Position numbers and translations under genes: made by a program | Shown here: positions 10,291 through 38,863 of the stretch, one piece after another | How positions within the stretch are numbered: the first letter of the stretch is position 1 | Layout: the number at the start of each line of letters is the position of its first letter | The notes under the pieces: model-generated | What the model saw: only the letters and a program-made list of their open reading frames with translations | The model's database searches: none | What the model was told of the DNA's origin: nothing | IMG/VR virus record: IMGVR_UViG_3300031576_000169 | Span: 1-38,863 of that record | From: a virus | Reading direction: 5' to 3' (one strand) | DNA length: 38,863 bases

Positions 10291-10491
10291 CTACCTGGCC
10301 ACCATCTGACGCCGCGACCGCCGCGGCTTCGGCGCTACGTAATGCTCCAGCTCCTTCACGGAGACGTAGAGGCGGCCGCGGACCTTCACCGCGTCGCGGA
10401 GCTTGCCCTGGCTCACCATCTGGTAGATCACCTGGCGGGACGAGAACCCGAATCGCTTCGCCGCCTCTATCGCCCCGATGTACCCTTCCAT
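10291..10491 (-). CDS. small helix-turn-helix DNA-binding protein (excisionase-like fold)
   Basis: 66 residues. MEGYIGAIEAAKRFGFSSRQ then VIYQMVSQGKL and GRLYVSVKELEHY form the MerR/HTH_17-type winged helix seen in excisionases and small regulators. The tail is basic (PKPRRSRRQMVAR). I chose ATG at 10491 because GGAGG lies 8 bases upstream. It is the first gene after its own promoter (10515-10543), so it could be a regulator; no integrase exists to pair with an excisionase role. Confidence 0.8.
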   Translation of the reverse strand: MEGYIGAIEAAKRFGFSSRQVIYQMVSQGKLRDAVKVRGRLYVSVKELEHYVAPKPRRSRRQMVAR

Positions 10492-10514
10492 GATCATCAC
10501 CTCCAGCCTGCGCC

Positions 10515-10543
10515 ATTCTATCACAATCTAATTGCTTTGTTAA
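10515..10543 (-). promoter_or_regulatory. sigma70-type promoter before the HTH gene
   Basis: Minus strand TTAACA (10543-10538), exact 17-bp spacer, TAGAAT (10520-10515). It lies in an AT-rich island in otherwise GC-rich sequence, 24 bases upstream of the HTH start codon. Expected to drive the HTH, recT and nuclease genes. Confidence 0.6.
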
Positions 10544-12452: not shown

Positions 12453-13005
12453 TAGAAATGATAAGAATTCCGCGATGGCCCAGGCACCCCACAAGATGCC
12501 ATTATTTCCATACTCCGTGGCTGGCCCCAGGAGACGCGATCTCCGGTGAGTTCAAGGCGTAGTACTACGAACCAGCCACGATCTCGAAGCGGCGGGCTGG
12601 CGGTGACGAGCGGCGGGGCATCCGGACGGGTGCCGGGACGCTTACCGTTGGTCCGGACGCGGCTATCCCAGAACGGGCATCCGGGCGGCCTGCGAGACGT
12701 CCGGCACGGCAGCTAACCCAGGCGGGGCGGTTCTTACGAGATGCCCTGTCGCCCCTCACTGAACAGCCAGTTCAGGTCGGGCTCCTGGATCTCTACCCAT
12801 TCATGTGATCAAACGTCGCCGGGTCGCAGAGCTTACGGCCGACCGGCGAGACAGCTCCGGCCAGGAAACACGATGTCTTGCGTGCGGGTGTGGAACTGGA
12901 GTAGACTGCCATCGTTGTTCCTAACAGACAACACTCTGGCTCACCCGGGCCAGGAAGTCAAGGGCTCCCTCGCGGGGGCTCTTGGCATTTAAGGTGATGA
13001 AATTC
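12453..13005. other. gene-free interval between late and early regions
   Basis: No convincing gene on either strand. It holds the far upstream side of the early promoter, a possible three-way structure at 12516-12580, and GGGCATCCGG repeated at 12616-12625 and 12675-12684 with an inverted partial copy (GATGCCC) at 12740-12746. Late transcripts should end here, but no clear hairpin with a T-run was found. Confidence 0.6.
12516..12580. repeat. nested inverted repeats, possible three-way junction
   Basis: CGTGGCTGG 12516-12524 pairs perfectly with CCAGCCACG 12572-12580, enclosing GGAGA/TCTCC (12530-12534/12540-12544) and the 12-base palindrome CGTAGTACTACG (12558-12569). It may form a junction in late-transcript 3' RNA, or serve as DNA binding sites. 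Confidence 0.4.
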
Positions 13006-13332
13006 TCAGACGCCGGCGAAGCCTTCCGGGTCGATGCCGTGGAGCGGGGGCTTGGGGAGGAGGTCGAAGCCGGGGATCCCGCGGCCGGCCTTCCACTCGC
13101 AGACGAGCAGCTCGATTATCGTCTTGCGGAAGCCGCGCTTCGTCCGGATGAGTTTCCCCTCAGCGCCGAGAGCGCGCTTGAACTGCCGGCTGACGTAGAG
13201 CTGGCGCCGCCAGTCGGAGCCGAACTTCCCGTCCGCCTCCTCGATCGCCAGCTTGAGCTTGCGGAGGATGATCGGGCCGAGCCAATCGAAGGCGAGTTTC
13301 AGGGAAAAGGCGGTGAGCGCCGGCAGCGCCAT
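13006..13332 (-). CDS. hypothetical basic protein, last late gene
   Basis: 108 residues. A hydrophobic N-terminal stretch (LPALTAFSLKLAFDWLGPII) is followed by basic segments (LRKLKLAIEEADGKFGSDWR, KLIRTKRGFRKTIIELL). ATG at 13332 has GAGAG and AGGG upstream and follows the holin-like gene by 4 bases. It could be a membrane-associated lysis accessory. The 3' end is the last coding base before the gene-free interval. Confidence 0.6.
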   Translation of the reverse strand: MALPALTAFSLKLAFDWLGPIILRKLKLAIEEADGKFGSDWRRQLYVSRQFKRALGAEGKLIRTKRGFRKTIIELLVCEWKAGRGIPGFDLLPKPPLHGIDPEGFAGV

Positions 13333-13336
13333 TCTC

Positions 13337-13549
13337 TCATCCCTTTCGCCTCCCGAGCCCGACGAGCCCGGCCCCTGCCGTGACCATGCCGAGGGCGGCC
13401 TCGGTGCCGACCGTGCTCTCGCAGAGCCCGGTGTAAGCGCATACCAGATTGCCGGCACCGATGAGCAGCGTCCCAAATCCTCCGGCCACGGTCAGCCACC
13501 CTGACGGTACGAACTTCAGCTTGAGCAAAAACGGAATGATGTTTCCCAC
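13337..13549 (-). CDS. small membrane protein, holin candidate
   Basis: 70 residues with two likely membrane helices (about 17-38, SGWLTVAGGFGTLLIGAGNL, and 50-66, EAALGMVTAGAGLVGLG), a short loop with two Cys and a basic end (GRRKG). GTG at 13549 follows GGGAGGTCGC. Size, helices, charged tail and the adjacent endolysin cluster suit a holin that permeabilises the inner membrane. Assignment is by topology and context only. Confidence 0.5.
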   Translation of the reverse strand: MGNIIPFLLKLKFVPSGWLTVAGGFGTLLIGAGNLVCAYTGLCESTVGTEAALGMVTAGAGLVGLGRRKG

Positions 13550-13573
13550 GCGACCTCCCGTGCCGCTCTCTTG

Positions 13574-13789
13574 TTACGCGCCCTGCGGCTCCTGGCGCGG
13601 CGCCTCCCCCATGATGCGCTGCACGTCTTCGTCCAGCTTCCCGCCGTCGTGACGGCTCATCCACCTGGCCCAGGCAGCGAGCTCCGCGACTCTGGGTGTC
13701 CATCCATGCAAGTCCTCGAAGAGTCCCCCGAGGTGCTTCTTCACGCGATCGTCCACGCACATCGTCCACGCTCTGAGCGCCGGAGTCAA
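13574..13789 (-). CDS. hypothetical protein in the lysis cassette
   Basis: 71 residues, soluble and helical: MTPALRAWTMCVDDRVKKHL, then FEDLHGWTPRVAELAAWARW and KLDEDVQRIMGEA. I chose the TTG at 13789 (TTGA overlap with the preceding stop, GGGGAG upstream); an internal ATG would remove nine residues. Function unknown. Confidence 0.55.
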   Translation of the reverse strand: MTPALRAWTMCVDDRVKKHLGGLFEDLHGWTPRVAELAAWARWMSRHDGGKLDEDVQRIMGEAPRQEPQGA

Positions 13790-14028
13790 GGCGGCATCTC
13801 CCCGTGGTGCTCCGTGTTCACCCTGTCCATGATGCGCCGCAGGTCGCGGTGCAGGTGCTGAAGGTGCGCGGTGTAGTCTTCGCAGCTGATGAGCGGGGAG
13901 CCGCCCGCCTTCCCCTCGAGCTGCTTCTGGAGTTGCATCGTGGTCACGGGCAGGCAGCCGTAATAGTTCGCCACGGCGAACAGAATGCCGCAACCCGTCG
14001 CCACGGCTCCCCACTGAATCCCCTTCAC
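13786..14028 (-). CDS. small membrane-anchored protein, possible spanin partner
   Basis: 80 residues. A hydrophobic segment at about 4-24 (IQWGAVATGCGILFAVANYY) ends in YGCLP, which only weakly resembles a lipobox. The rest is a helical periplasmic-type region (LQKQLEGKAGG, CEDYTAHLQHLHRDLRRIMD). GTG at 14028 overlaps the coiled-coil membrane gene as GTGA. Together they recall an inner/outer spanin pair, but the lipobox is poor. Confidence 0.5.
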   Translation of the reverse strand: MKGIQWGAVATGCGILFAVANYYGCLPVTTMQLQKQLEGKAGGSPLISCEDYTAHLQHLHRDLRRIMDRVNTEHHGEMPP

Positions 14029-14405
14029 CGCTGCCCTCCCGTCGGTTTGGCCGGCAGGCGCAGCAGGATTTCGTTCACGCCCCTCTCGACGTTGCCGACC
14101 CGCGCCTCGATGGCGGTCAAGCGCTCCCCGAACTCCTCGATCTTCGAGGTCCTCCTGGCTTGCTCTTTGTCGATGCGGTCGATCTGCTCGATCCTCCTCA
14201 TCGTCTCCTGTTGATGCTCCTGCCGCCAGTATTCGATGTTCTCGATCCGGCTCCTGTTCTCCTCGGCGTAGCGGACGTCGATCTTGCTCTCCGCGATGCA
14301 CGCCCGGGTGTAGCTGGCAGCGAGTGCCGCGGCAGCTACGGCGGCGGCGGCCCACCCGCCCCAGGATTTCAGCCCGTTTTTCGCCCGCTCGTTCACCCCC
14401 CGCAC
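14025..14405 (-). CDS. membrane-anchored coiled-coil protein, Rz-like spanin candidate
   Basis: 126 residues with one N-terminal membrane helix (about 15-32, WGGWAAAAVAAAALAASY) followed by a long charged coiled coil (RSRIENIEYWRQEHQQETMR, RIEQIDRIDKEQARRTSKIE) and a Pro-containing end. This is the layout of an inner-membrane spanin or a holin-associated protein. GTG at 14405 follows the endolysin stop by one base. It would connect inner and outer membranes at lysis if the host is Gram-negative. Confidence 0.5.
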   Translation of the reverse strand: MRGVNERAKNGLKSWGGWAAAAVAAAALAASYTRACIAESKIDVRYAEENRSRIENIEYWRQEHQQETMRRIEQIDRIDKEQARRTSKIEEFGERLTAIEARVGNVERGVNEILLRLPAKPTGGQR

Positions 14406-14406
14406 C

Positions 14407-14889
14407 TCATACCGCCACCGGCCCCTCTACCCCGTCGAACCTCCCGAGGTAGGTGTTCGCGCTCCCGTTCACGTAGTAGAGCGCCTTCTGCGCGACGGTC
14501 GGGGATTCGCTCAGGATGCTGACGTGGAGGCTCTCGCCCAGGCCAGTCGGCGGTTCCGGGACCTTGAAGTAGACGATGAGCTGCCACCAGGGGAGGTTGG
14601 CGTGGGCCCAGCGAAACGCCTCGACCAGGGCGGCCCGCGGCCCGTCGAGGTCGCCGGCCTCCCCGAGGACGTGCTGCGAGACCTTCCCCGCGCCCGCCAC
14701 CTTCGCCGCGTAGAGGGGGTCCCTCGCCATCGCCTTCTGCCGCGAGTCGGATCGCAGTCCGCTGGTTGGGAACAGGGCGGGGAACTTCCTGACGAGCGGG
14801 ACCCCGAGGGCGTGCCAGGTCAGCTTGATCTTCCACAGGAGTCTGGCGTCGTCGACGTCTGCGGCGATCCAGGCGGCGGGGACCTTCAC
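14407..14889 (-). CDS. endolysin, M15-type peptidase
   Basis: 160 residues. SQHVLGEAGDLD (about 71-82) contains the zinc-binding HxxGxAxD signature of peptidase M15, with His73 and Asp80; WWQLIVYF and SLHVSI (His122) provide the third ligand region, and LRSDSR precedes. Such enzymes cleave peptidoglycan cross-links. No signal peptide, so it depends on a holin. GTG at 14889 overlaps a tiny upstream frame (GTGA) with GGAGG close by; ATG at 14907 is an alternative adding six residues. It heads the lysis cassette. Confidence 0.85.
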   Translation of the reverse strand: MKVPAAWIAADVDDARLLWKIKLTWHALGVPLVRKFPALFPTSGLRSDSRQKAMARDPLYAAKVAGAGKVSQHVLGEAGDLDGPRAALVEAFRWAHANLPWWQLIVYFKVPEPPTGLGESLHVSILSESPTVAQKALYYVNGSANTYLGRFDGVEGPVAV

Positions 14890-14945
14890 GCTGCCTCCGG
14901 CTGACATGTGGCGTCGTGGTTCACGGTGAGGTCGTAAAGCGTCAC
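14886..14945 (-). CDS. 19-residue possible microprotein
   Basis: MTLYDLTVNHDATCQPEAA from GTG at 14945, with AAAGG nearby, stopping within the endolysin GTG (GTGA). Supported only by coupling on its 3' side and its place in the gap after the beta-helix gene. Confidence 0.3.
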   Translation of the reverse strand: MTLYDLTVNHDATCQPEAA

Positions 14946-14948
14946 CTT

Positions 14949-16916
14949 TCAGGCGCAAGACTCATTGACGCCCTTGCAGTCCTGACCGCTGATCAGCCAG
15001 CAGAGGATCGAATAGAGGTCCCCCAACATCTCGCTGATCACCACGATGACCTTCCCCGGCCCTGCCGGCCCGGCGACCTCGAACTCGTCGGCCCCGATGT
15101 CGGTCGCGGATCCCTGCGGCCTGCCCTGCTGATCGAAATCGTTCGTCGCCCCGCTCGTTCCTGCGTCCTTGTCGGCGGTGTCCGTCGAGTGCAGGTGTAG
15201 GTCCCATTGTTCTTCACTCGTTGCGGAGGAGTCAGCGCACCAGGTCGCGGAGTCGCACTTGACGAAGACGGGGGCGACGCACTTGTTGCTGGAGCCAAAT
15301 CCGCCGATCCCGGCACATGAATATTGTGTGCCGTTGCACGTCCCAGCAGAACTATTCTCACAGGCAACATTTCCAGCAGTGTCATGAAGATTGTTAAAGA
15401 TGTAGGAGCCAGCGGCGTCACTGCAATCAGTAAACTCAGAGGCCGCAGACGACGCTAACACAGAAATGTTGTTCCTGGCCGTGTGATTTGCAGAACCAAT
15501 TACTATTCCAACGCGGGTGTCGTAGATCGTGTTGTTCTCAACTGTAATAACATCTGGGGAGACGATCCACAGTGCCGCCGCAGAACCACTGTCATCAATG
15601 CAATTTGAGGAACCAGAGAACGTTCTGATATGCCATAGCATGTTATTGCGGACAGTAATGTTTGGGTTACCGCCAGCCCACATGTTTCCACAGATGTGTA
15701 TACCACCGTTGTAATTTCCGTTGCTGTTTCCGGACTCGCCACGTCCGTAGACCCTGTTGCGTTCGATCACGATGTCATGGCTGTCTACACTATCACTGCA
15801 TCCGTCATCTCCTAACCTGAAAGCTAATCTGCAACTCCAATCTGCCTCAACTCTCCATATGCCTTCGCAGGCAAATATATTGTCAGCCACAGTAGCGTTA
15901 GCTACACCCTTATCGAATGCGTTGAGGCTGACATCATGGAGATAATTGCGTTGCAGCGAGTATATGAAGTTGCTTCCCCCAGAGAACGTATTCAAATCCA
16001 TTCCGCCGCCAGTATTAAAAAATTCGTTGTCGTTTATTGTGATCGTGTGCCCACTTGTTCCCATGTTATTCAGGCGGAACACACTGTTGCAGGCGAGCGA
16101 GTACTCGTTCCGGAGGAATGTCAGATCGCCACTGGCGTCAACAATAAAGAATGTATATGCACTTACACTGGCGTCGATACAGGCAGTAACCTCGGCAGCG
16201 TGCGTGACGGCCCATAGCCTCTGGTCCGTGCGGGAAAACTTCATGTCCTCCCAGATAAAGTATCCCCAGCCGTCTCCCGCAGCAGCCCCACTGTCGTTCC
16301 GGATCATCCGGCCATTGAACTTCGTCCAATACATGAACTTCGACTGGTTCCATGACCCGCTCGATACTAGGGGATTGCCGTCGAACGTCCAGTATTTCTC
16401 GTCGGTGAACCCTGCGGCGCTGACCGACATGGCACGTGCAGGCTCGTCAGTATCAAATAGACCGTTCCCGTTATGATCGCCGCTGATTGTGACTGTATCG
16501 CATGTGCCGCCGGCACAAAACGGTTTCATCGTGATCCGCGTGCTATTGTTCGTGCCGCTCATTCTTGGCATGAGCCATGTCCTAGAGCCTGCAAATATCT
16601 CCACACCAGTCGACACGACCCCAACTTCATTCACGTGGTTCGCATCATCACAGGTCTGCCCTGCCGCCCCGCATCCTCCACAGCAGAGGATGATGTTGTC
16701 CCCGGCCGCCACTTCCGTCCCGCACCCGTCGCTCATCGCCGCCGCCCACACGTCACCCGAGGCGGCGCACGCCACGGCGTCAGGTGGGTCGATGCACCAT
16801 GGATCGCCGCTCGTTCCCGAGCCTCCGCTCGCGCAGTCGGAGAAGTAGTAGTCCGTAGCTGCTGCCGGAAGAGCCGAGAGAAGCAGCGCCGCTATTGCAA
16901 GAGGTAGTTGACGCAT
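14949..16916 (-). CDS. exported right-handed parallel beta-helix protein
   Basis: 655 residues. A typical signal peptide (MRQLPLAIAALLLSALPAAA) precedes a long array of beta-helix coils with Asn ladders and GV/IV turns, for example VITVENNTIYDTRVGIVIGS and NITVRNNMLW. The C-terminal part holds DFDQQGRPQGSATDIGADEF, as in secreted choice-of-anchor-Q type proteins, then a hydrophobic end (KVIVVISEMLGDLYSILCWL). Many Cys suggest disulfides and export. GC content is clearly lower than in flanking genes. The fold resembles polysaccharide lyases and tailspikes; enzyme activity is not shown. It lies between fibre genes and the endolysin. Confidence 0.7.
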   Translation of the reverse strand: MRQLPLAIAALLLSALPAAATDYYFSDCASGGSGTSGDPWCIDPPDAVACAASGDVWAAAMSDGCGTEVAAGDNIILCCGGCGAAGQTCDDANHVNEVGVVSTGVEIFAGSRTWLMPRMSGTNNSTRITMKPFCAGGTCDTVTISGDHNGNGLFDTDEPARAMSVSAAGFTDEKYWTFDGNPLVSSGSWNQSKFMYWTKFNGRMIRNDSGAAAGDGWGYFIWEDMKFSRTDQRLWAVTHAAEVTACIDASVSAYTFFIVDASGDLTFLRNEYSLACNSVFRLNNMGTSGHTITINDNEFFNTGGGMDLNTFSGGSNFIYSLQRNYLHDVSLNAFDKGVANATVADNIFACEGIWRVEADWSCRLAFRLGDDGCSDSVDSHDIVIERNRVYGRGESGNSNGNYNGGIHICGNMWAGGNPNITVRNNMLWHIRTFSGSSNCIDDSGSAAALWIVSPDVITVENNTIYDTRVGIVIGSANHTARNNISVLASSAASEFTDCSDAAGSYIFNNLHDTAGNVACENSSAGTCNGTQYSCAGIGGFGSSNKCVAPVFVKCDSATWCADSSATSEEQWDLHLHSTDTADKDAGTSGATNDFDQQGRPQGSATDIGADEFEVAGPAGPGKVIVVISEMLGDLYSILCWLISGQDCKGVNESCA

Positions 16917-18943
16917 ATGCTCACGTGTCCAGGGGTCCCCACGATCGTCGTCGGGTCGATCCGTATCCAGTCTCCGGCGTCCAGGCTCGGGTTGTCGATG
17001 GCCCCGCTCTCGCTCGTGTTGGTGGTTGTGCAGGTGATCTCGGCCTCCACGTTGATGCACGCGGAGGCGTTCCCGTCGCACTCCTTCACCAGGATCGCCG
17101 CGCTGGTGGCGGCGGCCACGATGCAGTCTATCCCGGTCACCGTGGCGGCCCGCTCGAGCCGCAGCACGATGAAGTCTTGGGAGGTGGCTGGGGCGTCCAC
17201 CACGGCGCAGGCCGTCTTGAACTCCCCGTCGAGTGGGGTCCCGGATAGCAGGGGCCCGCAGTTCCAGGTGTTGGCGGGGGAGCAGTAGCAGAACTTCCTC
17301 ACCGTCCCGGAGCTGTCGATCCGCGTGTCGTCGAGGGTGCAGGTGCCGGCGACCACGGCGGCCACTTCTACCCGGTCTGCCACGTTCGTCCCGGTCCCCT
17401 GCCTCTTCATGGACCCGGAGGAGTCGAGCCTCACGCCGTTGGTTCCGTCTGGGAAGAAGTCGACGGGGTCGTTGACGATCTGAGTGCCGGCGCTCGCGAA
17501 CGTCCACACCGCCGTGATGGTTTCGACGAGCGTCGTGGCGGCCATGTTGTCGAGGTTCTGGTCGTCTACGGTGTCGCCTGCTCCGAGGAGCACGAGGTTC
17601 CCGTTCTCGTCGAAGTACCCGCGGTTCACCGGCACCGTGGATCCGGACGGCGTGGTGAAGAAGGCCAGCCTCCCGGGGGCGCTCGTGGAGGTCCACCCGG
17701 TGGCCGCGCTGGCCTCCAGGATCGCCCCGTCGGCGTAAGTGGGCCCGGTCCCGCTGCTGCCGGAGAAAGCGTACCTCCACAGGACGTCGCCGCCCTCCAC
17801 CGCGGTGTTGGCGTCGTTGTACCGCGCCCGCGAGACGTTCCCGCCGCCACCGCCCGTGCTCTCGCGGTGCAGGAGGCTCACTTCTTCCGCCACCGCCGTC
17901 GCGCTGTTTTGGTTCACCACCAGGACCGTGCCGGTGTCCGTCCGGTTGATCGTCTGCGGCGCGGCCGCGTTGAAGGTGTTTCCCTGGTCGGTGTAGGCGG
18001 TGGCGGAGTGGCCTTGGGCCTTGGCGATCCTGGATCCGGAGTCGAGGCCAGCGATCCCGCTAGCGGCGTTGCGGTTGATCGACAGGTCGAACTGGTCTCC
18101 GGCCACGTCCTCGCTCACCACGAAGTCGCTGGCGTTGATGAAGTCCAGGCGCCTCCCGACGGTCCCCACCTGCACCCCGACCTCGAACACGGCGGTCTTG
18201 ACGTCGGTTCCGGCGCCTCCCCCGTCGTCGGTCGAGCACCCAATGGTCCACGGTCCCACCCCGGTCACCGTGAGCGCCCCGGCGTTGACGTCTCCTGTGC
18301 ATACCGATGGGTCGATGTTCCAGATGAAGTCCCGGATCCCGGAGTAGGCCGCCGCCCCCTTGAAGCTGTGGTAGTCGGTGCCGCCCCCGGAAGCTTCGTA
18401 GAAGCGCCACTCGCCCTGGTTGGGCATCCCGGCGGCCCCGGTCTGGAAGGTCCACACGGATCCGTCCCACCGGATCCTGCCGTCGTTCGTGGAGCGGTTG
18501 AACACGAGCTCCCGGTTCTCGTCTACTTCCGGTCCGAAGATCATCTGGATCGGGTTTCCCAGGAGCCAGAAGGTGTCGGCGGTTGTTCCGTTGCGGATCA
18601 GGGTGAGCAGGTAGTCGGTGTCCTCGGTTCCGGAGATCACGTCGGTCATCGTGAACAGGTGCTGCCCGGCCGTCACGAAGGCCCCGGCGCTGTTCTCGAT
18701 GTTGACCCTCAGCGCCACGCGGTCGCTGGCGGCCGCCGTCGCGGGGTTGTTCTGGAGGATCAGGGGCAGGACGAACCCGTTGGTCCCGGTGATCTCGAAC
18801 CTCTTGAGGGCGGTGAAGGTCTGCTCGATCTGCAGGATGGCGTAGGTCCGCACCCCCTGCGGCAGGGCTGCTCCGACGGCGGCGGCCACCACCAGGATCC
18901 CGACCAGGTACTTAGAAAGGAACCGACGAACCGGTGCCGGCAT
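16892..18943 (-). CDS. long fibre-like protein with N-terminal export/membrane segment
   Basis: 683 residues. A positively charged N-terminus and hydrophobic helix (RRFLSKYLVGILVVAAAVGA, about 6-26) look like a signal anchor. Beyond it is a Thr/Gly/Asp-rich beta region typical of phage fibres (TFNAAAPQTINRTDTGTVLV, GRLAFFTTPSGSTVPVNRGY), and then a Cys-rich C-terminus (KFCYCSPANTWNCGPLL, ITCTTTNTSESG). It overlaps the preceding gene by 32 bases and the beta-helix gene by 25. Probably a host-interaction or decoration protein. The export segment is unusual for a virion fibre. Confidence 0.6.
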   Translation of the reverse strand: MPAPVRRFLSKYLVGILVVAAAVGAALPQGVRTYAILQIEQTFTALKRFEITGTNGFVLPLILQNNPATAAASDRVALRVNIENSAGAFVTAGQHLFTMTDVISGTEDTDYLLTLIRNGTTADTFWLLGNPIQMIFGPEVDENRELVFNRSTNDGRIRWDGSVWTFQTGAAGMPNQGEWRFYEASGGGTDYHSFKGAAAYSGIRDFIWNIDPSVCTGDVNAGALTVTGVGPWTIGCSTDDGGGAGTDVKTAVFEVGVQVGTVGRRLDFINASDFVVSEDVAGDQFDLSINRNAASGIAGLDSGSRIAKAQGHSATAYTDQGNTFNAAAPQTINRTDTGTVLVVNQNSATAVAEEVSLLHRESTGGGGGNVSRARYNDANTAVEGGDVLWRYAFSGSSGTGPTYADGAILEASAATGWTSTSAPGRLAFFTTPSGSTVPVNRGYFDENGNLVLLGAGDTVDDQNLDNMAATTLVETITAVWTFASAGTQIVNDPVDFFPDGTNGVRLDSSGSMKRQGTGTNVADRVEVAAVVAGTCTLDDTRIDSSGTVRKFCYCSPANTWNCGPLLSGTPLDGEFKTACAVVDAPATSQDFIVLRLERAATVTGIDCIVAAATSAAILVKECDGNASACINVEAEITCTTTNTSESGAIDNPSLDAGDWIRIDPTTIVGTPGHVSICVNYLLQ

Positions 18944-19445
18944 CTGTGAGCACTCCTCCCACCACCAGGAACTTGTGGTACAGCTTCGGTACTTCGTCCC
19001 CCAGCAAGTATAGCGCTCCGTCGAGGGCCAGGAAGCCCGTGATCAGGTAATTGATCGGCACGACCGCTGGCGGGGGGATCGTCCCGGGGGTCGTGACCTC
19101 CTTCTCGACGACGAAGATCCCCTTCGCCAAGGTCCTCGTTTTGGAGGCGAGGACCATCTCCAGGTCCCACACGTACACTCCGGCGAGGGAGAGCGTGTCT
19201 GAGGGAACGAGAAGGACGTCCACCACCCCGCTGGCGGCGAGCGCCAGGTCGATGCCGCTGCCGGCGGGGGAACTCTTCTGCAGGACGAAGACCGCATCCT
19301 CCAGGGATGCTTTCACGGTGAACTTGAACGTCCCGGCGCTCACGTTGACGATGGCCCCGGCAGCGTCCGTCACGGTGACGCGGATCGGTTGGTCGTCTCC
19401 GCGATCGATGCGGACGAGGTGGGTGTTGGGGTTGACCGTGAGCAT
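18912..19445 (-). CDS. baseplate/fibre-attachment protein (BppU-like N-terminus)
   Basis: 177 residues. MLTVNPNTHLVRIDRGDDQP then IRVTVTDAAGAIVNVSAGTF resembles the immunoglobulin-like N-domain of upper baseplate proteins (polarity-type strand order with KASLEDAVFVLQKSS). The C-terminal part has a hydrophobic segment (INYLITGFLALDGALYLLGD). Located between two fibre-type genes. Weak family resemblance only. Confidence 0.5.
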   Translation of the reverse strand: MLTVNPNTHLVRIDRGDDQPIRVTVTDAAGAIVNVSAGTFKFTVKASLEDAVFVLQKSSPAGSGIDLALAASGVVDVLLVPSDTLSLAGVYVWDLEMVLASKTRTLAKGIFVVEKEVTTPGTIPPPAVVPINYLITGFLALDGALYLLGDEVPKLYHKFLVVGGVLTDAGTGSSVPF

Positions 19446-20107
19446 CAGGAACCTTCACCCTTTGGGGTTGATGCTGCGGCGACGGATCCCTTGATGGACA
19501 GCGAGGACGGGGTCCCGGAGAGCGCCAGGCTCGATGGTTTCCCGCGCAGCTCGTTGAAGGCGCCCTCGGCGGACCTCGCCTCGACGAGCGCCTCGGGTCC
19601 ACCGGCGTGCCGGCTCGGAGGGGCCGGGTTCCACGGGGTGTCGACCCGGTGTGCGGCCTGCCTGACCCGGAGCACCAGGTCCGCGGCAGGGAGTCCCGTG
19701 GAGTCGCGGTTGACCTTGACCATGAGGGCGAATCGGATGTTGGCGGACCCCATCTTCTTCGTCCCGGTGGCGGAGAAGGACTTCGTTCCGGTCCCGGAGA
19801 GGGCCGCGCTCTCCGCGATGAGCGGGGCGATCAGGCCGGCTCCCGGGGCCTGGGCGAAGGCGATGGTATAGGTCATCGAGGGGTCGGCGGACAGCACCTC
19901 GATGTCGGCCGCGTACGTCCCCTCTTTCCATGAAGGGAGGCCCGGGATCCCCGCCCCGGTGACGAAGACAATCTGGTCGGAAGTCGAAGGCGCCAGCGTG
20001 ATCCTGACTTCCCCCAGGTCGGGCTTCGAGACCGTGTCCAGAAGCCGGACAACCCCCCCGACGGGGTAGCTGCTGAAGGCGTCGGACTGGATGAACCGGC
20101 TCGGCAC
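19445..20107 (-). CDS. hypothetical tail/fibre protein
   Basis: 220 residues, beta-rich: MPSRFIQSDAFSSYPVGGVV, TLAPSTSDQIVFVTGAGIPG and FAQAPGAGLIAPLIAESAAL. The C-terminal third is Pro/Ala/Ser-rich. GTG at 20107 directly follows the previous stop. It belongs to the tail-tip block; no domain recognised. Confidence 0.6.
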   Translation of the reverse strand: MPSRFIQSDAFSSYPVGGVVRLLDTVSKPDLGEVRITLAPSTSDQIVFVTGAGIPGLPSWKEGTYAADIEVLSADPSMTYTIAFAQAPGAGLIAPLIAESAALSGTGTKSFSATGTKKMGSANIRFALMVKVNRDSTGLPAADLVLRVRQAAHRVDTPWNPAPPSRHAGGPEALVEARSAEGAFNELRGKPSSLALSGTPSSLSIKGSVAAASTPKGEGS

Positions 20108-20563
20108 TCACCACATCCCGGTGGCCGCGAGGCCCGCCTCGATGCGGTAGGGGATCAGGTGCCGCATCGTCAACTCCCAGGAATAGAGCAGGATCGATAG
20201 TACGTTCTCTACCGGCGCCACGTTTTCCTCGAATCCTCCGACCTCGCGGTATAGGACGCTGCCGAACTCGTCGTTCCCCAGGGTGAGCTCGACCAGCGTC
20301 TCGTCCTCGGCCAGGGCGGTCGTGATCTCACTGAGGGTATTTTGGTCCGCGTGGGGGGCGTTGGGGATGATGAACTCGACCTCCGCCCGCACCCGGTATC
20401 CCAGGCGGTCCTGGCGCACCGAGCGGTCGACCATCTCCTTGTCGATGACCATGCGGTCGTAGAACGGCCTGGCCTTGGTGATCTGGGTGATGGTCGAGAG
20501 GTCGTACACCTGCGCCACGCCGGCCGGCCGCGTGACCCGGATCTTGGGGGCGTAGTTGATCAT
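20108..20563 (-). CDS. hypothetical tail protein
   Basis: 151 residues: MINYAPKIRVTRPAGVAQVY, RVRAEVEFIIPNAPHADQNT, VELTLGNDEFGSVLYREVGG. A compact mixed alpha/beta sequence consistent with a small tail-tip or baseplate component. ATG at 20563 overlaps the preceding stop (ATGA). No family recognised. Confidence 0.65.
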   Translation of the reverse strand: MINYAPKIRVTRPAGVAQVYDLSTITQITKARPFYDRMVIDKEMVDRSVRQDRLGYRVRAEVEFIIPNAPHADQNTLSEITTALAEDETLVELTLGNDEFGSVLYREVGGFEENVAPVENVLSILLYSWELTMRHLIPYRIEAGLAATGMW

Positions 20564-22431
20564 GTGGTCCTCACGATCAGCCTACCACCCTTGCACGACG
20601 ACAATTGCCCGGGTGGCCCCCCGATCTGCATCTTGTACTCCCGGCTGGATCCCGGCACGGTCAGCGCCGCGCTCCTGATCCGCTGGTACGTGGAGCCGGC
20701 GTTCTCGATGATCACGACGGTCGATCCATCTGACAGGTCGACGAGCCTCGCCTTGCACCCGTCTTTCAATACCGCCTCCAGCTTCAGGGTGATGGTCCCG
20801 TATCCTGCGGGATCGAACAGGTAGAACGTCTCGTAGTCGATCCAGGTCACCGCGTAGGGGATCAGCGGCAGGAAGTGCGGCCGCTCCGAAGGGTCCCACG
20901 GATAGGAGCGCACCTCGGGGTCGTCCATCCACAGGTACGGCGAGGCGAGGAAGGGCACGAGCGGGGAAGCCGGGGGCGGTGGCGGGGGGAACGGCACCAG
21001 CGGGAAGAAGTGCGGGAAGACGTGGACCTTCTCGACCTCCTGCTCGAGGAGCTGGCCGCGGGTGAACGGCACCACCGGGCTTGCGGGTTCCGGCGGCGTG
21101 GCGAAGAAGGGCACGCGGAAGAACCGCGGCCCCATGAGCACGCGGCGCTCGGAGTCGTCAGATTCTCCTATGGTCCTCGACCTGCCGATGGGGATGACGG
21201 GGTTCGCCACTACTGCGTTGTCCCCGACCGCCCACCATGCGATCTCCGTCGCCACCGCGTTGTTCGTGCTCCAAGTATTGCGGAATCCGTTGGCGATGAA
21301 GGAGCAGTCGGCCTCCGCCTTCATCGTGGAGGGGCCGGTGTTCGTCGAGATCACCTTTGCCGTGTCGATCTTCGAGTTGGCCTCAGTGTTGAGTGCGGTG
21401 TCGCTCCATTCGACCCAGCCATGCCCTTCCCGCGTCCCGTCGAAGGAGCCGATGGCCAGCTCGGAGTCTCCTCCGATGCCGTCTGCCGCGAGCCTGTCAG
21501 CCGTCGCCTGGAGCACGCCTTTCGGCTGGAAGCCGGGAGCGGTGATGTCGTCAGCCGACCCGGAGGCACCGGTGGATTTGCTAAAGGCTCCGACGGCATG
21601 CTGACCACCTCGGACTGCGAGCACACCGTAGCGACGGGCGGTTGCTTGCACCGTTGTCCAATTCAGAGTGTAGCCATCTGTGATGAAACCGACGAAGTCG
21701 GCGGACGTGAAGACGGCTGGAATTGCTGTAACGCTGAGCGTATTGATCACCCGATTCGTGACGAGGTCGTTGACAGCTCCAAAGTTCGCCGCCATCGTCT
21801 GGGCGTCTTGCCCCGAGAGGCCGTAAGCCCAGCGTGCAGAAGATGACTTGGCTGCTCCGATGCCAGGATGGTACGACGCTCCTGTGGCTGGTGGGGCGTT
21901 GCTCGTTCCGCCGTGTAAGACAAAGATAAACTCGGGATCGAAGCCAAAGCCGACATCATTTTGGTTGCCGGTCACGACAGGTGAAGACTTCTCCAGGACG
22001 ACTGCGTTTGTTAAATCACCACCGCCGAGTACGAGGTAGTGGATTAGGTAGGCGGTCGTATTATTCGTTGGGTAGATAAGTTGGAAGCTGCCAGCGCTGA
22101 ATGCGTTGATTCGCCCGCGGACGCCCAGCGTTGGCGTTCCGTTTGTGAGTATCTCAAGGACACTGTCGCCCCAACTGTCACCACAGTTGGAAGTTGCGAC
22201 GTTGTCATCCGACGCCCACGCAATACAGCGTTGGTTCGCCAGAGCTGTTCCACTTCCCATGCCGACACTGCATCTAGCGCCCGCCGAGAAGCCCTCTGCG
22301 GTTTGTCCGGTGCACCACAAGATCAATGCCTTGGGAGTTAGTCCAGAGTCGACAAGACTCACCGTTTGGGTGGCATTCGCGGTTCCAGACGTCTCCTTGG
22401 CGAAGCTGCCACGCTCGAAGAGAAGGGCCAT
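20560..22431 (-). CDS. receptor-binding/tail-fibre protein, mosaic
   Basis: 623 residues. The first 430 or so are a beta-rich repeat-like region (FERGSFAKETSGTANATQTV, GYTLNWTTVQATARRYGVLA, KADCSFIANGFRN-like segments). A Pro-rich hinge region follows, with repeated xxPxVPF motifs (EPASPVVPF, HFFPLVPF, then seven prolines, ASPLVPF). The end is a small beta domain (TFYLFDPAGYGTITLKLEAV). GC is lower in the N-terminal part than in the C-terminal part. The domain layout suits an adhesin on a flexible stalk; specificity unknown. Confidence 0.6.
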   Translation of the reverse strand: MALLFERGSFAKETSGTANATQTVSLVDSGLTPKALILWCTGQTAEGFSAGARCSVGMGSGTALANQRCIAWASDDNVATSNCGDSWGDSVLEILTNGTPTLGVRGRINAFSAGSFQLIYPTNNTTAYLIHYLVLGGGDLTNAVVLEKSSPVVTGNQNDVGFGFDPEFIFVLHGGTSNAPPATGASYHPGIGAAKSSSARWAYGLSGQDAQTMAANFGAVNDLVTNRVINTLSVTAIPAVFTSADFVGFITDGYTLNWTTVQATARRYGVLAVRGGQHAVGAFSKSTGASGSADDITAPGFQPKGVLQATADRLAADGIGGDSELAIGSFDGTREGHGWVEWSDTALNTEANSKIDTAKVISTNTGPSTMKAEADCSFIANGFRNTWSTNNAVATEIAWWAVGDNAVVANPVIPIGRSRTIGESDDSERRVLMGPRFFRVPFFATPPEPASPVVPFTRGQLLEQEVEKVHVFPHFFPLVPFPPPPPPASPLVPFLASPYLWMDDPEVRSYPWDPSERPHFLPLIPYAVTWIDYETFYLFDPAGYGTITLKLEAVLKDGCKARLVDLSDGSTVVIIENAGSTYQRIRSAALTVPGSSREYKMQIGGPPGQLSSCKGGRLIVRTT

Positions 22432-38348: not shown

Positions 38349-38862
38349 GGATGGTACCCTCTTCTGCCCGCTTCCTGGCCTCGCGTACTTTGGCGACTTC
38401 CTCGGCCATCATGTGCAGGTAAGCGGCGGCCCCGCTGGTCGCAGCCCCGACCGCCACGAGGAGGGCCGACACCGTGTCGTCGTGGGCCCCCGAGGGCGCG
38501 GAGAAAGACCAAATCCCGGTGTTCGGACTCTGGCTGCTCTCATAGACCCTCATCTCTGACGGCACCGGGTCGAGGGGTGCCAGAGACAATGTAGCATTTT
38601 TCGCCCTCCGGATGATCTCGAACACCCCGGACCTCTTGTTCGAGGCGTCGGTGAACCAGGATTGGCAGTTGGGATAGATTTCAGCCACTTCGTCGAAGAT
38701 GGGCTTCCCCGGGCCGTTGATCTCGATGGCAGCGACGGCGTTGTTCCACGTGGAACAATAGTCCTTGATGTCTTGTTTCAGCCGCGGGCTCGACTTCGGC
38801 CGCACCCGCAGCATGTCCGTCACCGTGAAGCACTTCAGACAGAGTGGCATCCCGACGGTGAA
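38341..38862 (-). CDS. terL: terminase large subunit, C-terminal part (joins to base 1)
   Basis: Reads in frame from the right edge through the repeated 205 bases and continues WFTDASNKRSGVFEIIRRAK to the stop at 38341. GAHDDTVSALLVA near the end contains the third acidic site of the RNase H-like nuclease. The unique part, 38341-38658, adds 105 residues to the 340 at 1-1020, giving a normal-length large subunit. The right edge is a window boundary, not a biological end. Confidence 0.9.
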   Translation of the reverse strand, partial: FTVGMPLCLKCFTVTDMLRVRPKSSPRLKQDIKDYCSTWNNAVAAIEINGPGKPIFDEVAEIYPNCQSWFTDASNKRSGVFEIIRRAKNATLSLAPLDPVPSEMRVYESSQSPNTGIWSFSAPSGAHDDTVSALLVAVGAATSGAAAYLHMMAEEVAKVREARKRAEEGTIHD

Positions 38863-38863
38863 G
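38659..38863. repeat. terminal overlap, copy 2 (circular junction)
   Basis: Second copy of bases 1-205. In terminase codons the four differences give two silent changes and two replacements: Gln to Lys in the CFTV region, and Leu to Pro after KSS. The pattern looks like closely related strains merged in assembly, not random sequencing error. Confidence 0.9.

Follow-up and report, generated by a model that had tools for sequence, protein, structure and literature searches.

Beta-helix tailspikes are common among phages, and it is generally assumed that the cytoplasm is where tailed phages fold their tail fibres. Cytoplasmic proteins, too, are freed by lysis. PblA and PblB of a Streptococcus mitis prophage are tail proteins. 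According to the available part of the source, they are freed by lysis and bind bacterial surfaces (PMC9917116). Phages of Porphyromonas gingivalis encode proteins with signal peptides, which, in the part of the source consulted, are not described as fibres or beta-helix proteins (PMC10367356). Secreted proteins encoded by phages are already a known kind, and so are the beta-helix spikes of phages. In the literature searched, which covered few subscription papers and no preprints, no text was recognised that treats tailed-phage fibres with signal peptides as a class, and recurrent signal peptides on tail-fibre-type late proteins were not found described in the accessible portions of that literature.

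The protein discussed here, P0001, is encoded in the tail module of an IMG/VR virus record of 38,863 nucleotides, the whole of which is called the window. P0001 resembles the right-handed beta-helix tailspikes of phages (Sf6, AM24, PDB) in its predicted beta-helix and in the location of its gene, i.e., in a tail block, by fibre genes and before lysis genes. It differs from them in its many Cys residues, in its choice-of-anchor-Q-like C-terminus, and at the N-terminus, where a signal peptide takes the place of a virion-binding part. With the bacterial choice-of-anchor-Q beta-helix proteins (NCBIfam NF041518), it shares the signal peptide, the predicted beta-helix, and a C-terminal DIGADE[FY] segment, but it scores below the cut-off of that family, its gene stands in a phage gene order, and no recognised sorting signal follows the segment. 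PblA and PblB differ from P0001 in that their release, as far as described in the available part of the source, is by lysis and not by Sec export, and they belong to another phage and another host (PMC9917116). The features of the locus are the following.

14949..16916, minus strand: P0001, signal-peptide, Cys-rich protein of 655 aa, predicted beta-helix/choice-of-anchor-Q-like
16857..16916, minus strand: predicted Sec signal peptide of P0001, aa 1-20 (sequence and scoring rule)
15297..16196, minus strand: low-GC3 (0.52) part of P0001, aa 241-540, with much of the predicted beta-helix region (GC3 count, hhalign)
15063..15203, minus strand: choice-of-anchor-Q-like segment of P0001 with DIGADEF, aa 572-618 (NF041518 below cut-off, alignment with phage L007, hhalign)
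14952..15062, minus strand: C-terminal tail of P0001, 37 aa, with a hydrophobic stretch (read by eye)
16892..16916, minus strand: overlap of 25 nt between the P0001 gene and the upstream gene
16892..18943, minus strand: upstream partner, tail-fibre-like protein of 683 aa with an N-terminal signal peptide, a QTFTALKRF motif and 12 Cys
18869..18943, minus strand: signal peptide of the upstream protein, aa 1-25, MPAPVRRFLSKYLVGILVVAAAVGA (scoring rule)
14407..14907, minus strand: downstream gene, candidate endolysin (motifs by eye)
20560..22431, minus strand: tail-region protein that lacks a signal peptide; in contig L027, a homologue of it is the neighbour of the signal-peptide beta-helix gene

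P0001 and its gene

The P0001 gene starts with an ATG at 16916 and ends with a stop at 14949. Its open frame reaches up to 17780, but the added part is rich in Arg and runs into the upstream gene, which has a GC3 of 0.91 in its own frame; therefore, 16916 is the credible start. The predicted signal peptide, MRQLPLAIAALLLSALPAAA followed by TDYYF, has an n-, an h-, and a c-region with an AxA site and passes the home-made scoring rule that was used for signal-peptide calls. Behind it, an N-terminal part rich in Cys is followed by a region rich in Asn, the DIGADEF segment, and the C-terminal tail. All 27 Cys residues lie outside the signal peptide, and they amount to 4.1% of the protein, compared with 0-1.8% for the other late genes that were listed from the virion block. 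A first-pass annotation of this DNA had proposed an exported protein of foreign composition with a classical signal peptide and many cysteines in a phage tail block. Its coordinates are correct, with the gene on the minus strand, the signal peptide and the cysteines are as it described, and the portal, tape-measure and other phage genes in the record agree with the location. As to the scoring rule, its 76 matches among 1,371 ORFs include false positives, viz. an N-terminus of the MPRLSKIGAAALAAFGW type that is present about 20 times, and 39 of 10,553 internal starts pass it.

P0001 has no match in Pfam or PHROGs, neither as a whole nor in the part after the signal peptide. Its match to NF041518 (17.9 bits, E 0.0028) is below the curated cut-off of 25 bits. 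Thus, the choice-of-anchor-Q-like C-terminus that had been proposed stands as a likeness, with 54% identity in aa 572-618 to the DIGADEF region of a protein of phage L007, but not as membership of the family. Aligned by hhalign to seven relatives from five viral contigs, aa 383-618 gave a probability of 97.1%. Six of these relatives were compared with Pfam: those of L007 and L027 match Beta_helix, the former also Gly_rich_2, and that of L028 matches NosD, whereas the protein of L016 and two proteins of L002 have no match. Structure prediction was less informative: the two AlphaFold models of P0001 are poor (mean pLDDT 39.7 and 45.4), none of the 34 Foldseek rows reaches E <= 0.001, though many of them are beta-helix enzymes, and the best VIA-align Z of 5.0, in a list with lyases and hydrolases in the top rows, is below the trusted level. 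Sf6/AM24-type tailspikes are also in that list with Z 3.4-4.0, too low to claim kinship. P0001 is therefore called a beta-helix protein by homology and not by structure, and it is in this sense that the earlier beta-helix assignment holds. Comparison with Pfam, PHROG, NCBIfam and PDB sequences revealed no lyase, hydrolase or other enzyme match; divergent enzymes can escape such searches. As no catalytic family matches, the depolymerase activity that had been suggested is a guess.

No match to P0001 was obtained by tblastn in 50,697 phage records, nor to the beta-helix proteins of L007, L027, L028 and L002 or to the signal-peptide fibres of L027, L016 and the window (16892-18943). Searches for related loci with single window proteins found none, and in the viral collection no relatives of P0001 were found beyond the contigs of L007, L012 and L027.

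The proposed foreign composition is seen in P0001 as a mosaic. The gene has a GC content of 55.4% and a GC3 of 0.64, compared with mostly 0.8-0.95 in its neighbours, and from N- to C-terminus the GC3 is 0.69 (165/240, aa 1-240), 0.52 (156/300, aa 241-540) and 0.85 (98/115, aa 541-655). The middle and last segments differ with a Fisher p of 1.4e-10. The middle holds the most foreign composition and therefore looks like a swapped central domain. For bacterial relatives, one genome per species was scanned for RPQGxxxDIGADE[FY], which yielded 81 stretches. The closest sequences to P0001 among 103 compared are bacterial (e.g., L237, 31% over 239 aa), in a comparison that favours bacterial matches because the motif was taken from P0001 itself. 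The N-terminus is visible in 53 of 76 bacterial ORFs, and 39 of these 53 have a signal peptide by the rule. By sequence, a bacterial ancestry for the beta-helix/anchor-Q part of P0001 is plausible. Its C-terminal tail, read by eye, contains no recognised sorting signal; short tails are also found in many bacterial relatives. Six bacterial anchor-Q proteins (L205, L208, L240, L250, L252 and L262, mostly Desulfobacterota according to the record title) have a short, hydrophobic, Leu-rich tail soon after DIGADE[FY], which possibly is an unrecognised sorting signal.

The QTFTALKRF sequence of the upstream protein is close to a TFxALQTF motif, a scan for which gave at least 120 stretches, many of which fall within long, repetitive proteins that resemble fibres. 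Most holders among the matches listed have no adjoining signal peptide, so TFxALQTF was discarded as a signal-peptide marker and is just a general fibre motif. The downstream gene has no match in Pfam or PHROG; its motifs, read by eye, are like those of M15 peptidases, and it may encode an endolysin.

Signal-peptide tail proteins in other phages

In a scan, DIGADEF was found at 33 loci, five of which (L002, L007 together with the near-copy L012, L016, L027 and L028) encode signal-peptide proteins of the P0001 type amid phage genes. In L007, four signal-peptide genes, one with a weak signal, lie directly downstream of the major head protein gene (phrog_283), and the product of one of them matches tail fibre phrog_892. 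In L002, five such genes have tail protein phrog_4271 on one side and endolysin phrog_938 on the other. In L027, the signal-peptide gene follows those for the portal and the major head protein, and in L028 it is located between head/tail genes and head-tail adaptor phrog_442. The gene order of the window is seen again in L016. There, tail fibre phrog_11439 and a 255-aa gene precede the signal-peptide fibre; next come a beta-helix-type protein that has a signal peptide and 40 Cys, one small gene, and endolysin phrog_465, and an integrase is encoded further on. The two signal-peptide genes of L016 are joined by a GTGA overlap. L016 and the window share only two weak matches, both in left-half (replication-region) genes, and the L016 counterpart of P0001 has a native composition (GC3 0.89). 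The latter rules out low GC as a mark of the whole signal-peptide class.

Signal-peptide fibre-like proteins are present in many viral contigs. Because P0001 is coupled to a second signal-peptide fibre-like gene and the pair recurs in the unrelated, native-composition L016 phage, a view of it as isolated foreign cargo is not supported; judged by these sequences, it is a member of a recurring class and not a lone acquisition. Thus, of the proposal that a bacterial protein had been acquired, a bacterial source is compatible with the best matches among the sequences compared, but the picture of an isolated foreign insert is not supported. At other viral loci of the DIGADEF scan, anchor-Q beta-helix proteins without a signal peptide were found; hence, export is dispensable for this fold. 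In three contigs, a signal-peptide protein of about 250 aa is encoded upstream of or near a signal-peptide fibre (L007:6999-7754, L312:7233-8042 and L402:837-1589), which hints at a conserved exported cassette.

How signal peptides and tail proteins are combined can be seen in L007. The part of its signal-peptide fibre that comes right after the signal peptide matches a Microcystis phage Mvi-Yong1342-1 protein at the N-terminus of the latter (44% over 108 aa). The Microcystis phage homologue has no signal peptide, and its start corresponds to the predicted start of the mature L007 protein. A scan for this N-terminal domain gave at least 120 stretches, represented by 115 distinct rows, 108 of which have a complete N-terminus. 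Among the matches listed, the start codon lies just ahead of the domain in 102 of the 108, which are free of a signal peptide, and a hydrophobic signal directly precedes it in six (L007, L294, L312, L313, L359 and L402). Therefore, the signal peptide appears to be an add-on to tail proteins, with a mature N-terminus that would then be like that of the forms without one. P0001 does not contain this domain, and the result concerns the class and not P0001 directly. In L359, a tape-measure gene, a 255-aa gene, a 705-aa signal-peptide gene and the signal-peptide fibre gene follow each other. The Cys pair of the L007 domain was considered as a mark of export, but this idea was weakened since relatives without a signal peptide carry the pair too: among the matches listed, 66 of these 102 domains have at least one Cys (p 0.046 for those with versus those without a signal peptide).

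Exported proteins often gain disulfides; for this reason, the Cys content was compared in late genes. The comparison included late genes picked by hand from six phages and labelled by eye and by the home-made rule: 17 that encode a signal peptide, counted after removal of the first 22 residues, and 75 that encode none. The signal-peptide genes are richer in Cys, a difference that was reached in none of 20,000 stratified permutations. In the window, the mean Cys content is 3.04% in the two adjacent signal-peptide late genes and 0.37% in the 19 other late genes. The corresponding means are 3.80 and 0.71% in L016, 1.97 and 0.86% in L027, 1.56 and 0.70% in L002, and 2.49 and 0.28% in L028, whilst the difference is small in L007 (0.77 and 0.54%). 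This enrichment strengthens the interpretation as Sec export, which is the natural reading of the signal peptide and lends support to the export proposed in the first-pass annotation.

Both signal-peptide proteins of L016 contain the Cys motif CCTGxGxGTC, which is absent from P0001. In viral contigs, this motif is present at 38 loci in 39 ORFs, 33 of them distinct and 27 of these with a visible N-terminus and at least 60 aa. By the rule, a signal peptide is present in 23 of these 27, a set that includes near-copies (L164/L170), and in 65 of 552 controls, which are ORFs from the same loci with a length of 150 aa or more; two of the four misses (L169 and L183) resemble signal peptides by eye. 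The longer motif CxxxxxPxxCCTGxGxGTC recurs across otherwise dissimilar signal-peptide proteins in many viral contigs (L016, L164-L200).

A proposed export route and its rivals

From the signal peptide, the richness in Cys, the gene order with its overlap, and the recurrence, we infer, with a probability of roughly 0.58, that P0001 is a late-made, Sec-exported and probably disulfide-bonded fibre. It would be translated together with the preceding signal-peptide fibre late in infection, exported via Sec to the periplasm, trimmed there by signal peptidase, and folded with disulfide bonds. Once the endolysin opens the cell, it would be released, and outside the cell it may bind, and possibly cleave, surface polysaccharide as a fibre that is either free or attached to virions. 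Since lysis frees cytoplasmic proteins anyway, acting on neighbouring cells needs no signal peptide, and the signal peptide must serve disulfide folding, action before lysis, or exclusion from the cytoplasm. Of these roles, folding fits the Cys data best.

P0001 might instead be an acquired bacterial, secreted, polysaccharide-degrading enzyme, which leaves the cell ahead of lysis and strips the host surface or acts on neighbours. The low GC3 of aa 241-540, the bacterial best matches among the sequences compared, the signal peptides that many bacterial relatives have by the rule, and the lyases and hydrolases in the top VIA-align rows, with Z at most 5, are in line with this option. However, P0001 matches no lyase or hydrolase family, its L016 counterpart is native, its gene is coupled to a fibre-like gene, and lysis would free the protein even without a signal peptide, which together make such an enzyme unlikely. 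That P0001 is an ordinary virion tailspike, with a hydrophobic N-terminus that is not cut by signal peptidase and serves in assembly or membrane contact, is quite improbable. Its position among tail genes and the existence of anchor-Q beta-helix proteins without a signal peptide in viral contigs would suit such a spike, but the textbook signal peptide with its AxA site, the Cys enrichment of signal-peptide late genes, and the placement of the signal peptide ahead of an otherwise complete N-terminus in the L007-type tail domain argue against it.

Lambda Lom and the prophage Eib adhesins are examples of morons. A function of this kind, in the envelope or at the surface, by which the lysogen is altered or superinfection is blocked, would agree with the signal peptide, with a location between tail and lysis genes, and with the integrases in phage L016 and contig L312. 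It appears a little more improbable still than the uncut tailspike, as the overlap with the upstream gene leaves little space for an own promoter or terminator, a scan of 12500-19500 with a sigma-70-like consensus, a weak test that covers no other promoter types, gave no match, and no integrase was found among ten left-half window proteins tested, albeit an excisionase-like HTH protein is present. Finally, the first codons of the signal peptide lie inside the overlap with the upstream gene, and the signal might be a chance product of overlapping frames. This is very improbable: the overlap leaves 12 of the 20 signal residues outside, the same pattern recurs in unrelated phages, and internal starts rarely pass the rule, as mentioned above.

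The export signal on a Cys-rich, fibre-like protein encoded among tail genes, a combination shared with several unrelated uncultivated phages, suggests that this phage folds a part of its surface-binding gear outside the cytoplasm. A broader proposal, which we put forward only tentatively and hold to be rather doubtful, is that many uncultivated tailed phages split virion assembly, with heads and tails made in the cytoplasm, and with disulfide-bonded fibres or beta-helix spikes exported via Sec, matured in the periplasm, and attached at lysis. The recurrence of a signal peptide ahead of a domain that elsewhere lacks one makes such a two-compartment route testable. If true, it would explain disulfide-rich phage fibres and affect their expression as reagents. 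Even without attachment to virions, phages exporting surface-binding proteins before lysis would matter ecologically.

The virus record

The HTH protein mentioned above is small, is encoded at 10291-10524 of the window, and matches the excisionase/regulator family phrog_66. The ends of the record are near-identical direct repeats of about 205 nt (1-205 and 38659-38863), which are identical in the first 50 nt but not over the whole length. When one of the repeats is removed, an open frame of 447 aa spans the junction, with a terminase-like ATP-binding motif. Because of the repeats and this frame, the record probably represents a circular genome in complete form, with a length of about 38.66 kb.
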